In this document: piece after piece, positions 45,457 to 53,314 of the stretch
Layout of the letters: each line of letters opens with the position of its first letter
Position numbering within the stretch: the first letter of the stretch is position 1
Assembly: GCF_010091925.1 (NCBI RefSeq)
Contig: NZ_WVID01000002.1
Location: 52,988-116,987 of the forward strand
Length of the DNA stretch: 64,000 nucleotides
Direction: 5' to 3'
Source of the DNA: Nostoc sp. B(2019)
Lineage (GTDB): Bacteria; Cyanobacteriota; Cyanobacteriia; Cyanobacteriales; Nostocaceae
Notes under the pieces: generated by a model
The model's database searches: none
The model's input: the letters and a program-made list of their open reading frames with translations, nothing else
What the model was told of the DNA's origin: nothing
Position numbers and translations under genes: made by a program

Positions 45457-45913
45457 TTATATTAATGGCAACGGTGGAAGTTCAAAGTCATTAAACGAGC
45501 AAACATTGTCAGTCGAAGTATTTAAAGCTCTCACTAGCTTATCGTCGAGAGTCAGCAAACTCATTAACCTGCTGTGAAAGTGCAACATAAGAAGCATCAT
45601 AGGCGGAGATGTTGTAATTTAATGCGATCGTCACTGCATCCGCCATCAAGTCAGCTGTGGAGACGACACGCAACGGGAAAGCTTTGAGAGTGGCTAAATC
45701 TGCCTGAACCTCAGCAGCAGTGTACATCCTTGCACGTACATACTTCCATAAGGCGTTGGCACACTCTATATAAAACAGGTCTGGGACAAAGATTTCTGTC
45801 TGTGGATTGGCAAAGTGATCAAAAAGTTGGTTAACTTTGGGGGTTATTTGATCAAGGATGAAATATTTGATGCATACACTGGTATCCACCACGCATCTAA
45901 GAGAGGTGGTCAT
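45457..45913 (-). pseudogene. Frameshifted VapC-type PIN toxin
   Basis: The first frame (45539-45913) begins CVVDTSVCIKYF, with YIECANALWKYV and SAYDASYVALSQQVNEF, giving the first acidic residues. It stops early at DSRR. In another frame the sequence continues LLTLDDKLVRALNTS and then NVCSFNDFELPP to a stop at 45457, which is the expected PIN C-terminus with its last acidic residues. A 1-nt insertion or 2-nt deletion near 45555 explains this. The short product lacks part of the metal site and is probably inactive. Confidence 0.8.
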
Positions 45914-46176
45914 CTGTTGCGGTCTTCTCTAATCATTTCAGTACTGTCAGGCAATCCGAAGTCCGCTGGATTTACACGGCGGCGACTACGACTTTCTTCT
46001 AGAAGTTTAAGTACATTGCATCGTTTCTGATCTTCCGTTTGCGGTGCTTCAGTTTTCAAAGCTTGTTCTAACAGAGTTATAACTTGGGCGTTAATTGAAC
46101 GATGCTGAGACGCGGCTAACTCTTGCAGTTTCGCATACAAATCATCAGGTAAATTTCTTACATAAAGGGTAGCCAT
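45910..46176 (-). CDS. VapB/FitA-type antitoxin
   Basis: An 88-residue Arc/ribbon-helix-helix antitoxin: MATLYVRNLPDDLYAKLQEL and SQHRSINAQVITLLEQAL form the RHH DNA-binding fold. The C-terminal NPADFGLPDSTEMIREDRNR-like tail (quoted as its core) wraps the toxin. It overlaps the toxin start by 4 nt. With the toxin frameshifted it is probably left as an orphan DNA-binding protein. An AGGAGG ribosome site lies upstream. Confidence 0.88.
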   Translation of the reverse strand: MATLYVRNLPDDLYAKLQELAASQHRSINAQVITLLEQALKTEAPQTEDQKRCNVLKLLEESRSRRRVNPADFGLPDSTEMIREDRNR

Positions 46177-46448
46177 CGCTTTACCTCCTAGCAGGATTTA
46201 TCACCATGCTAGCACAATGCAAGCACAGGGAATAGAGAGGCGATCGCAAAGCCTTTTGTAGCTTCAGGTGCAAATTTTGGTTAGATATGTCTTACATAAT
46301 AACTTGTGGAAAATTCAGTATTTATAAGGATTTTATTTACAATGACCAGGTTGATAATACATATAATTTACTAGTAAGAGTAGTATGAAATAAATTACTC
46401 AGTAACAAGCTTTGCATTTAACTTTTAATAATCAAAAATCTGTCAATT

Positions 46449-47789
46449 ATGAAGCGTCAGGAAATATTTGATAGAATTCAAGCCATAGTTGCTGAGTATT
46501 TATCTATTGAACACGAAAATATTACTTTTAGTTTTCCATTGATTGAGCCAATCTATAGTTCGTCATCTCATTGGTGGGGAGTTTCAATTGCTGGAGATGA
46601 ATTGATGGCAATAGAACTAATTATGAAATTAGAAGAAGAGTTTGATGTTGAAATACCTGATGAAGATGTTGCTCAATTTGCCACAGTTCAACATGCTGTT
46701 AATTATATTAGCAATAAACTCCCACCATCAAAGAATGAAGTAAATAGTAAAGATATAAATAGTTGGATTGAGGATTTTAAGAAAAAACTAGATTTAACTA
46801 TTGTAAACGGGAAAGAGTCTTTATCTTCAGTATTTGGTGATTATTTTAGCTCTTTAATTGAAACGCTACAAATATCTCGCAATCAAAAGTTCGTATTTCT
46901 CTTAGTTGGTCGCACAGGAGTTGGAAAGTCCAGTACTATTAACACATTAATGGGTAAAGAAGTAGCGCCAACTAGCCGTCGTAAAGCTACAACAATGGAT
47001 GTTAATTATCACGAAAATGAACTTAATGGAATTCATTTTACAGTTGTTGATACTCCTGGCTTATGTGATGACCATCCAGAAAAAGGAAATGATACAAAAT
47101 ATTTGGAACTCATAAGATCCAAGGTAAAGCAAATTGACTTATTATGGTTTGTTACACCTATTTATGAAACGAGAATCAGGAGTGATGAATTAAATGGAAT
47201 AAAGCTAATTTCAGAAGCATTAGGAGTAGAAATTTGGAAATATGCGGTTATCGTATTTACTTTTGCGAACAAGGCTGATAATTATTTAATTTACTTGAAA
47301 GAAAGAACAGAGGATATCCAAGAAGCAATAGCAGAGTATGCAGGATATGAGATAGCTAGCAATGTTCCGTCAGTAGCAGTAGATAATAAAAATGAAACAA
47401 CTCAAGATGGAAAAAAATGGCTTGGAGAACTGTATACAAAAGTATTTGTAAGGATATCTGAAAGCGGTACTATCCCTTTTTTATTAGCAACAGTTCAAAG
47501 ATTGAGTAGTAATAATTCACAAGAAGGCTCTACAGAAAAAAAAGTTGAGTTTGATGCTAGGCAAAAAGAACTTATTAAAGAAAAATTATTTAGTGTTATT
47601 CCAATTTTAAAAGGTATAGGTGGCACAATAGGTTCTGCGCTTGGAACAATGGTTTCTATGGTTACAAAAGTAGAAGAATTCAGAGAATTTGGAAAGTTGG
47701 GAGGTGAAGCGGCAGGAGAATACGTAGGTGAAAAAGTAGATAGTGCAATAGGTGATACACTAAATTTTTTTAGAGACCTATTTAGCTGA
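46449..47789 (+). CDS. Acyl-carrier-like domain fused to an AIG1/GIMAP-type GTPase
   Basis: 446 residues, visibly AT-rich. Residues 1-90 resemble an acyl carrier protein, with LMAIELIMKLEEEFDVEIPD and ATVQHAVNYI. At the site of the usual Asp-Ser-Leu the sequence is D50-E51-L52, so the phosphopantetheine serine is missing. The GTPase (about 147-350) has a P-loop GRTGVGKSS (154-162), TT at 181-182 in the G2 region, DTPG (201-204) and NKAD (274-277). This fits AIG1/GIMAP or septin-related G domains. The C-terminus is glycine-rich and mildly hydrophobic (about 388-425), then amphipathic. Possible membrane or defence role; not proven. Confidence 0.8.
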   Translation: MKRQEIFDRIQAIVAEYLSIEHENITFSFPLIEPIYSSSSHWWGVSIAGDELMAIELIMKLEEEFDVEIPDEDVAQFATVQHAVNYISNKLPPSKNEVNSKDINSWIEDFKKKLDLTIVNGKESLSSVFGDYFSSLIETLQISRNQKFVFLLVGRTGVGKSSTINTLMGKEVAPTSRRKATTMDVNYHENELNGIHFTVVDTPGLCDDHPEKGNDTKYLELIRSKVKQIDLLWFVTPIYETRIRSDELNGIKLISEALGVEIWKYAVIVFTFANKADNYLIYLKERTEDIQEAIAEYAGYEIASNVPSVAVDNKNETTQDGKKWLGELYTKVFVRISESGTIPFLLATVQRLSSNNSQEGSTEKKVEFDARQKELIKEKLFSVIPILKGIGGTIGSALGTMVSMVTKVEEFREFGKLGGEAAGEYVGEKVDSAIGDTLNFFRDLFS

Positions 47790-47900
47790 TAGAGCAAATG
47801 ATTTAGGTAGTTATGTACTTTACTAAAAGTAGCTAGATTAAGGGACTATAAGCATAAATTTCTGAAAGATTTTATACTGCTGTTGGTGTCCAGTAAACAT

Positions 47901-48089
47901 TCACTCTGACAGACCATAATTTTTGCGTACATCTTGTACAGAAACAACATTACCAGCTTTGCTATCCGCTAGTCCGGCTTCAACAGTTTGTCGAACATAA
48001 ATTTGGTACATCAAATCATCCCATGTGGAGTTTTCCAGCAACCTGTCAATCAATTTGCGGGTTTCTTCTTTAATGTTTAGATTTTTCAT
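47901..48089 (-). CDS. Orphan antitoxin-like small protein (62 aa)
   Basis: A short helical protein, MKNLNIKEETRKLIDRLLEN, then STWDDLMYQIYVRQTVEAGL and VQDVRKNYGLSE at the end. The STWDDLMYQIYVRQ-type middle resembles stabilising antitoxins of RelE/ParE-type pairs in cyanobacteria. No toxin gene follows on its strand (only about 110 non-coding nt before the GTPase stop), so it appears to be alone. The family is not certain. Confidence 0.65.
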   Translation of the reverse strand: MKNLNIKEETRKLIDRLLENSTWDDLMYQIYVRQTVEAGLADSKAGNVVSVQDVRKNYGLSE

Positions 48090-48177
48090 CAGTAGTTAAC
48101 CAAATAGTGTTTGTGCATCCATTTGGGCATATTGTAGATGCAAAATAATAGTTGCATTTATAACAACATTTATTCAA

Positions 48178-48262
48178 CGGAGAGGGGGAGATTCGAACTC
48201 CCGGAGGTTTTAGCCTCATCCGATTTCAAGTCGGACGCAATCGACCACTCTGCCACCTCTCC
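48178..48262 (-). tRNA. tRNA-Ser (anticodon UGA)
   Basis: The minus strand gives an 85-nt class II tRNA. The acceptor GGAGAGG pairs with CCTCTCC, with discriminator G. The anticodon arm TCCGA-CTTGAAA-TCGGA has anticodon TGA, followed by a long variable arm and the TTCGAAT T-loop. The 3' CCA is not encoded. Its 3' end faces the accessory stretch. Confidence 0.96.
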
Positions 48263-48361
48263 AGTAAATCTGTCTAGCTTCTGCCTAACCTAGTCAAGAC
48301 ACCATCTAAGTGCTTTTGTCGGCTAGCGCAAAAGCTGACAGATAATACTATATCCTATCAT

Positions 48362-51962: not shown

Positions 51963-52033
51963 AGCGGGCGGCGGGAATCGAACCCGCATTAATAGCTTGG
52001 AAGGCTATAGTTTTACCACTAAACTACGCCCGC
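51963..52033 (-). tRNA. tRNA-Gly (anticodon UCC)
   Basis: The minus strand gives a 71-nt tRNA. The acceptor GCGGGCG pairs with CGCCCGC, with discriminator T. The anticodon arm ATAGC-CTTCCAA-GCTAT has anticodon TCC, and the T-arm is GCGGG-TTCGATT-CCCGC. CCA is not encoded. Confidence 0.96.
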
Positions 52034-52090: not shown

Positions 52091-53314
52091 TCAAGGGAGG
52101 GGTTCTATTCTGATACGTACCATTAGATTGCTAGGCTTTGGATCATTTGGATCGTTATCGTATGCAGGTTCAAATTCCCAGCCTTTGAAAACTTGATCGG
52201 CAACGAAATCTTCATAGTAACTTCTTTCATCTGCCGGCACTCCTTCATCTTCAATATCAATCTTCTCAAGTTTGCCCTTTTCAGAAATTGTTAATATCAC
52301 AGTGAATTCTACAGGCTGACCAGGTTTCCTTTCAATAAACTTTACATATTCGAGTCCCTTGGGAAATGGCTCGTCGCTTATTTTGATTTTAGCTGGGTTA
52401 TTATGTCTATCCCTGTCTACCTGTTGAGGTTCCCCCACCAAACTCGCTAAGAGACTTCCACCAGGAACATTAGAGGTTTGCGAGGACGCTCCTTGAGTAT
52501 TAGTTTGCTCAGCTTGTTGACGTTGAAATTGCTCAGCTTGTTGGCGTTGGAGTTGCTCAGCTTGCTCGCGTTGGATTTGCTCCGCCTGTTCTTGTTGGAG
52601 TTGCTCAGTTTGTTCACGTTGGAGTTGTTCAGCTTGTTGGCGTTGAAGTTGTTCAGCTTGCTGGCGTTGGAGTCGCTCAGCTTGCTGGCGTTGGAGTTGC
52701 TCAGCTTGCTGGCGTTGAAGTTGTTCAACCTGCTGGCGTTGAAGTTGTTCAGCTTGTTGGCGTTGGAGTTGTTCAGCTTGCTGGCGTTGAAGTCGCTCAA
52801 CATGTTGGCGTTGAAGTCGCTCAACATGTTGGCGTTGAAGTTGTTCAACCTGCTGGCGTTGGCGTTGGAGTTGCTCAGCGATCGCTTGTTGATTTTTAGC
52901 AAAAGCTATTGCACTTCTATCTTGAGTGCTAGGGGTAGTTTTTGCTGTTACCTTATCTTTTGGAACTACTTGCTTTGGTGAATTTGTTGCTCGTAACTTT
53001 TGACTTGTGGATGGTGGCTTAGGTGAGACTGGTTTTGGTTTAGAAGCAACTTTTCTTGTTCTTGGTTTTGTCTGAGAAGAAATCTCTACAATTTCAATCG
53101 GAATAGTGGCTTTGTTCTGTTGCTCCCACAACCGGCTAAACTGAGATGAGCGAATTAGCCAGAACGCCAGCAAGTGCAGAGAGACTGAACCTATAACGAC
53201 AGCAATCCACAAACCTGGTGGATCGGTATGTCGCCTCCAGACCTTGGCTGGAATTGGAGTTTTGTCTGCAACCGATGGTGTCATATTATATTTAAACTGG
53301 ATATGATTTGGCAC
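52091..53314 (-). CDS. TonB/TolA-like protein with Gln-rich octapeptide repeat
   Basis: 407 residues. The order is a cytoplasmic N-terminus, one membrane helix at about 33-55 (GLWIAVVIGSVSLHLLAFWL), a Lys/Pro/Ser-rich linker, then about 122 residues of LQRQQAEQ-type octapeptides. The C-terminal domain (about 300-407) has TILTISEKGKLEKIDI, as in TonB C-termini. Such proteins span the periplasm to transmit proton-motive-force energy to outer-membrane receptors. The Gln-rich rod replaces the Pro-Lys rod of TonB and recalls TolA. No exbBD genes are adjacent. An alternative Met lies 10 codons in. Confidence 0.82.
   Translation of the reverse strand: MPNHIQFKYNMTPSVADKTPIPAKVWRRHTDPPGLWIAVVIGSVSLHLLAFWLIRSSQFSRLWEQQNKATIPIEIVEISSQTKPRTRKVASKPKPVSPKPPSTSQKLRATNSPKQVVPKDKVTAKTTPSTQDRSAIAFAKNQQAIAEQLQRQRQQVEQLQRQHVERLQRQHVERLQRQQAEQLQRQQAEQLQRQQVEQLQRQQAEQLQRQQAERLQRQQAEQLQRQQAEQLQREQTEQLQQEQAEQIQREQAEQLQRQQAEQFQRQQAEQTNTQGASSQTSNVPGGSLLASLVGEPQQVDRDRHNNPAKIKISDEPFPKGLEYVKFIERKPGQPVEFTVILTISEKGKLEKIDIEDEGVPADERSYYEDFVADQVFKGWEFEPAYDNDPNDPKPSNLMVRIRIEPLP
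52505..52870 (-). repeat. Fifteen-unit 24-bp coding repeat in the TonB-like gene
   Basis: Fourteen octapeptide units plus one 10-residue unit; consensus LQRQQAEQ, with variants LQRQHVER (twice), LQREQTEQ, LQQEQAEQ and IQREQAEQ. The DNA unit is 24 nt and its other frames are also open, which yields misleading long frames on both strands. Confidence 0.92.

Follow-up and report, generated by a model that had tools for sequence, protein, structure and literature searches.

The gene examined here lies in a 64,000-nucleotide (nt) window of Nostoc sp. B(2019), by which we mean the whole stretch of DNA that was analysed. It is an open reading frame (ORF) on the forward strand (46449-47789) that starts with ATG and encodes 446 amino acids (aa); by sequence and predicted fold, it is an acyl-carrier-like domain joined to a GTPase nearest Toc34. 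The carrier-like domain (residues 1-92; 46449..46724) is without the serine that carries phosphopantetheine and includes an enlarged, Ser/Trp-rich part of loop I (~residues 33-47; 46545..46589). The AIG1/Toc34-type GTPase domain follows (residues 147-342; 46887..47474, with its P-loop at 46908-46934), and the protein ends in a Gly-rich, mildly hydrophobic tail (residues 387-446; 47607..47786), all on the same strand. The best 19-residue Kyte-Doolittle mean of the tail is 1.11, which indicates no clear transmembrane helix. Upstream of the gene, Pfam identified a PIN toxin gene (45539-45913, reverse strand) and a FitA-like RHH antitoxin gene (45910-46176, reverse strand), and ARAGORN placed a tRNA-Ser (TGA) downstream (48177..48263, reverse strand). 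The preliminary description of this DNA had called the gene AT-rich and set it near toxin-antitoxin genes and a tRNA; both points agree with our results, as its GC content is 33.0% compared with 42.8% for the whole window (13 of 627 segments of the gene's size are as low). Further downstream, an ORF with a long QLQRQQAE-type repeat tract (52091-53314, reverse strand) was observed near a tRNA-Gly (51963-52033).

The reading of residues 1-90 as similar to acyl carrier protein (ACP), with Glu51 in place of the phosphopantetheine serine, was borne out. Specifically, Pfam PP-binding (PF00550) matched residues 49-87 with 31.5 bits (cut-off 20.8), the ACP 1x3o was matched by sequence in the PDB over residues 1-91 (E 9.5e-10), and alignment with serine-bearing relatives placed the Glu51 codon (46599-46601, forward strand) at the serine position, so that the DSL motif of a working carrier reads DEL. 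In the AlphaFold2 model of the whole protein, the carrier helices span residues 3-18, 51-65, 71-74, and 80-90, with low confidence at residues 36-47 in loop I. Because the Foldseek and VIA matches of the whole model were GTPases (among the matches listed), the carrier domain was also folded separately. The domain alone gave the same four helices (mean pLDDT 77.0), and Foldseek ranked ACP structures first (4etw_B, E 8.3e-6; 2ehs, TM by target 0.86), so the structure-prediction check proposed earlier returned a carrier-like four-helix fold at the N-terminus. Compared with ordinary ACPs, loop I has 12 extra residues: measured from where helix I ends to the AcpP E41 position, the span is 43 residues, against 31–32 in 18/18 FAS ACPs, which were selected by their ADSLD motif and inform loop length only. 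A Nostocales AcpP (L101) shares 36/91 aligned residues with the window carrier and 50/79 with the carrier of a serine-bearing relative in genome G521. A protein-database search with the carrier part alone returned two matches, which were the window protein itself and its relative P0002.

The GTPase was likewise confirmed as intact. Pfam AIG1 (PF04548) matched residues 151-332 well above its cut-off (79.8 vs. 27 bits), Toc33 (3bb4) was matched by sequence in the PDB over residues 147-276 (E 2.6e-10), and the G1, G3, and G4 motifs were all found (GRTGVGKSS, 154-162; DTPG, 201-204; NKAD, 274-277). PADLOC gave only local GTPase matches on the window gene. Members of the AIG1/Toc34-GIMAP family have roles in plant and animal immunity and in chloroplast import, and Toc34 and GIMAP proteins dimerise in a GTP-dependent manner.

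We compared the flanks of the gene with four genomes of the same genus (G001-G004). The outer flanks were 90–98% identical across these congeners, with lower identity in the PIN/RHH part. Similarity ended on the left at window position 46201 in three of the four (45959 in G001) and returned at 48171-48176 in all four, 1–6 bases from the tRNA-Ser 3' end, which defines a variable slot between the antitoxin gene and the tRNA (46202..48170). The slot is nearly empty in G002 (73 bp). In G003 (~3.3 kb) it holds a 23S-IVP protein and a 792-aa NACHT NTPase (NACHT 1.6e-14, NCH2 7.5e-39, PADLOC PDC-S60 4.3e-16); in G001 (~3.4 kb), where the first part is a diverged antitoxin gene, a ResIII/DEAD helicase and a second protein, with sub-threshold matches to HNH and Mrr_N, respectively; and in G004 (~1.6 kb) a 354-aa ORF with no Pfam or PADLOC match (L178:2368-3432, forward strand). 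No relative of the carrier-GTPase was found at 1e-40 in G001, G002, or G004, and G003 has one carrier-free relative elsewhere. Since the contents differ across congeners, the slot is a place of gene exchange that holds a conflict-type NTPase in at least one of them, and the earlier suggestion of a defence-type context is strengthened. A slot shared with such an NTPase makes a conflict or stress role of the window gene plausible.

Carrier-GTPases are rare. Among the best 120 of 608 GTPase relatives, 11 had a complete carrier, and with the G521 protein there are 12 full-length carrier-GTPases. Serine is absent in half of these (DEL in the window protein and P0002, EWI in P0003, CEI in P0045, FDS in P0051, and FEI in P0054), and the window protein and P0002, which are 88% identical overall, both keep the carrier domain at 446–447 aa. 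The preliminary description had named normal-serine homologues in a biosynthetic context as evidence against its reading. The serine half of this was found, as 6/12 proteins keep DSL or DSI (P0004, P0005, P0007, P0009, P0011, and that of G521); the biosynthetic half was not found in the one serine-bearing genome with readable surroundings (G521), where by eye the gene is flanked by a peptidase gene on one side and PIN/HTH-like genes on the other, and katG lies at a greater distance. Serine loss is therefore not a trait of the whole family.

At the level of the order, a relative with E of at most 1e-20 was found in at least 25/388 genomes (own included), with a match that starts from residue 1 only in the window's own genome. 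At the family level, at least 28/217 genomes have a relative at 1e-40, of which two (G000 and G521) are aligned from residue 1 or 2 onwards and the other 26 are without the carrier. Just 4 to 7 candidates were scored per genome, so these genome counts of relatives are lower bounds. In a genome scan with query A1, the best segment started before query residue 56 in none of 79 loci (alignment starts only). Across 11 rows of the GTPase tree, at least two changes are required to explain where serine is present. Three changes of the carrier label are required when P0008 is counted as carrier-free, but in the G521 gene the part that corresponds to the P0008 protein is continuous with a complete DSL carrier, which suggests that P0008 is truncated at its start and leaves the carriers in two clades. 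In the ACP tree, which bears on one versus many origins of serine-less carriers, 7/31 inner branches were starred. A viral or plasmid origin was rejected: viral contigs gave 28 pattern matches and no relatives, and none of 20 plasmid records covered 80% of the query (19 match the ACP region only, and AP025022 matches GTPase region 150-404 only).

Similar carriers occur on other proteins. Every PF00550 match of the window's genome was read, and 27/29 keep serine; the other two are the window gene and a 253-aa PspA-like protein on contig C12 (L008:1920-2681, reverse strand), in which a coiled coil is followed by a C-terminal, serine-less (DNL), loop-expanded carrier. The coiled coil weakly resembles PspA/IM30 (E 9.1e-6 for relative P0126, which falls short of the curated cut-off). 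All six distinct carrier-bearing members of this PspA type that were read are without serine (Asn in five, Glu in one). One copy is truncated in G002 (L150 4600-4872), and another (L203) is decayed, with stops, DQL, and an expanded loop. Across four PspA-type genes, the carrier outside an 18-codon insert gave dN/dS of 0.17–0.54 (six pairs), while the insert gave 0.72–8.81, with too few sites for firm values; these estimates come from the PspA-type genes and not from the window gene. No match to the PspA-carrier was found among plasmids. The surroundings of the PspA-carriers are ordinary chromosome, with ndhD or a ycf46-like gene nearby (gene names assigned by eye), which speaks against a tight tie of serine-less carriers to conflict slots.

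A serine-less-carrier profile searched against 388 genomes returned 95 rows in 91 genomes, of which at most 33 were read (10 of the 95 chosen for long frames or long spans). As the profile was built on serine-less, loop-expanded rows, such carriers are over-represented among the additional finds. One host protein, of ~430 aa, has a part that by eye is Gly-rich and hydrophobic, and a C-terminal carrier that is serine-less in G121 and G330 and DSL in G361 and G321. Relatives of this protein occur in 110/359 genomes, and among 30 loci read seven have a carrier, four with serine and three without. The protein (L241, L246, L250-L279) is without a Pfam family, its terminal carrier being occasional, with serine or none. 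Another host is a smaller, helical-looking protein with a C-terminal carrier (DEL in G329, G272, G267, and G246; DHL in G197). Its loop (L240, L242, L243, L244, L245) is very Ser/Tyr-rich, with spans of 57–69 and lengths that differ between close relatives. Pfam found no further family above its cut-off on the scanned host proteins. Serine-less carriers also stand alone in G301 and G493; the stand-alone loci L209:5706-6071 (KPL, 121 aa) and L249:1026-1331 (VDC, ~102 aa), both on the reverse strand, have long loops. The same small, non-catalytic domain is thus found on four kinds of host protein and alone.

Loss of serine is associated with an enlarged loop. In the first row set, spans were 38–69 in 21/21 serine-less rows and 31–32 in 8/8 serine-bearing fusions. 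With three rows added and counted by hand (L252 and L267 with serine and L251 without, all of span 31), the expanded loop is present in 21/22 serine-less rows and in none of 10 serine-bearing fusions or 18 FAS ACPs. The exception, L251 (DFL, normal loop), may represent an early step. Rows that start inside or after helix II (P0006, P0008, P0010, P0012) were left out of these counts, as were P0126 (partial), P0127 (an ordinary DSL ACP, span 31), L203 (decayed), and L205 (carrier not resolved). The association is present within both the AIG1 type and the ~430-aa type, each of which has both serine states. In a less selected sample (29 readable loci of 30), which overlaps the earlier rows, spans were 41–66 in 6/6 serine-less carriers and 31–32 in 23/23 DSL carriers, with L203 not fitting the pattern. 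These counts do not represent independent events, given the kinship of the rows and the bias of the profile towards long loops. The residue in place of serine in the 21 rows was mostly Glu (9), followed by Asn (5), Asp (3), His (2), Trp (1), and Pro (1). Among the helix-II contact residues (AcpP numbering), E47 and F50 were kept in 21/21 serine-less carriers and E41 and E48 in 19/21. In working ACPs, the acidic helix II meets basic patches of partner enzymes.

Our best explanation, held with moderate confidence, is that the carrier-like part, with Glu51 and enlarged loop I, is a docking module that brings the GTPase, with its intact motifs and predicted Toc34-like fold, to a protein partner. 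The occurrence of similar serine-less, loop-expanded carriers on other kinds of cyanobacterial protein suggests that the domain is likely for docking rather than for carrying lipid chains, and 6/12 of the carrier-GTPases have lost the serine yet keep the domain. The docking face would be the retained acidic helix II together with the new loop, and the GTPase, judging from its family and fold, would act as a switch that dimerises with GTP in the manner of Toc34 and GIMAP proteins; the Gly-rich tail may possibly touch a membrane. In the simplest account, a fatty-acid-type ACP would have been joined to a GTPase as a docking part, after which some lineages may have given up the prosthetic group and expanded loop I while retaining the docking helix. 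Retention of the serine in half of the carrier-GTPases makes a true holo-carrier a quite plausible ancestor. The domain had earlier been proposed as a protein-docking or death-fold-like adaptor; docking is the favoured reading, and the death-fold part was not borne out, since the fold is that of an ACP and no protein partner was found.

Four alternatives to docking can be weighed against these data. In the first, which we regard as unlikely, serine-less carriers on different proteins would bind each other in a conflict-type assembly, with the GTPase recruiting an effector that has a matching domain. Their presence on several unrelated proteins, including two within the window's genome, and the AIG-subfamily GTPase effector domains of cyanobacteria-rich conflict systems in the available part of Kaur et al. 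(PMC7159879) would be consistent with this, but the carriers diverge strongly in loop and sequence, and acyl carriers are unmentioned in the available parts of PMC7159879 and PMC8195603 on such adaptors. Moreover, the carrier-GTPase and PspA-carrier occur together in 1/217 family genomes only, the window's own (full-length carriers in two and four genomes, respectively, as lower bounds), so the two are not obligate partners, and the genome's second serine-less copy lies on another contig and not in one system or operon with the window gene.

That the carrier is a relic, decayed with its serine while the GTPase acts alone as in many carrier-free relatives, is more doubtful still. The carrier is missing in most genomes with GTPase relatives (26/28), and PspA-carrier copies are truncated in G002 and interrupted by stops in L203; against this, the domain is retained in both the window protein and P0002, the PspA-type carrier outside its insert is constrained, and helix II is kept in 21/21 rows. 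It is less probable again that the domain is an integrated decoy, which would mimic the cell's ACP so that an ACP-attacking phage or toxin protein triggers the GTPase. Descent from a fatty-acid-type ACP (most evident in the G521 carrier), the kept helix-II surface, and the variability of the slot, which in one congener contains a NACHT NTPase, fit a decoy, but the enlarged loop makes a poor ACP copy, no ACP-attacking phage protein was identified, and the literature search found nothing on such a decoy. A biosynthetic carrier coupled to the GTPase is very improbable despite the DSL/DSI motifs of half the relatives, as the window protein is without serine and no biosynthetic genes adjoin it or the G521 gene by eye.

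Returning to docking, a wider reading can be offered only tentatively: cyanobacteria may repeatedly have made a prosthetic-group-free adaptor (pseudo-ACP) from the fatty-acid ACP, with Ser replaced mostly by Glu, Asp, or Asn and the loop grown beside it, and placed it on GTPases of the Toc34/AIG1 type, on PspA-like coiled coils, and on two further kinds of protein. Such an undescribed docking network would link membrane and conflict responses to the interaction surface of ACP. The prosthetic group is the usual defining feature of an ACP; if a domain derived from ACP recurs without that group on several unrelated proteins, and is constrained in the single type for which this was measured, the surface of ACP would be worth keeping on its own. 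What the pseudo-ACP binds, and whether binding controls the GTPase, thereby becomes a testable question.

The window carrier shares its fold, acidic helix II, and clear sequence kinship with the type-II FAS acyl carrier protein (AcpP, PF00550) but differs in its Glu for serine, its 12 additional loop I residues, and its fusion to a GTPase. Close known relatives of the GTPase part are the AIG1/GIMAP and Toc34/Toc159 GTPases (PF04548). The defence system Eleos (LeoA/LeoBC) consists of two neighbouring genes for dynamin-like GTPases, whereas the window has a single 446-aa gene with a carrier domain and without a paired large dynamin-like gene; no second dynamin-like gene was noticed among the ORFs at 40–54 kb of the window. 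As the available part of Kaur et al. 2020 (PMC7159879) describes, AIG-type GTPases serve in conflict systems, and the AIG-GTPase effectors of iSTAND systems share with the window gene the type of GTPase, the cyanobacterial setting, and the conflict context. In contrast to those systems, no iSTAND or vWA/MoxR partner was noticed beside the window gene, and a carrier domain is unmentioned in that part of the paper. In the open-licence literature we found nothing, among the matches listed, on an ACP-AIG1 fusion, an ACP-PspA fusion, or a serine-less, loop-expanded ACP family, in line with the earlier remark that no described system has this architecture. The separate parts are known, and their combination and recurrence appear to be new.
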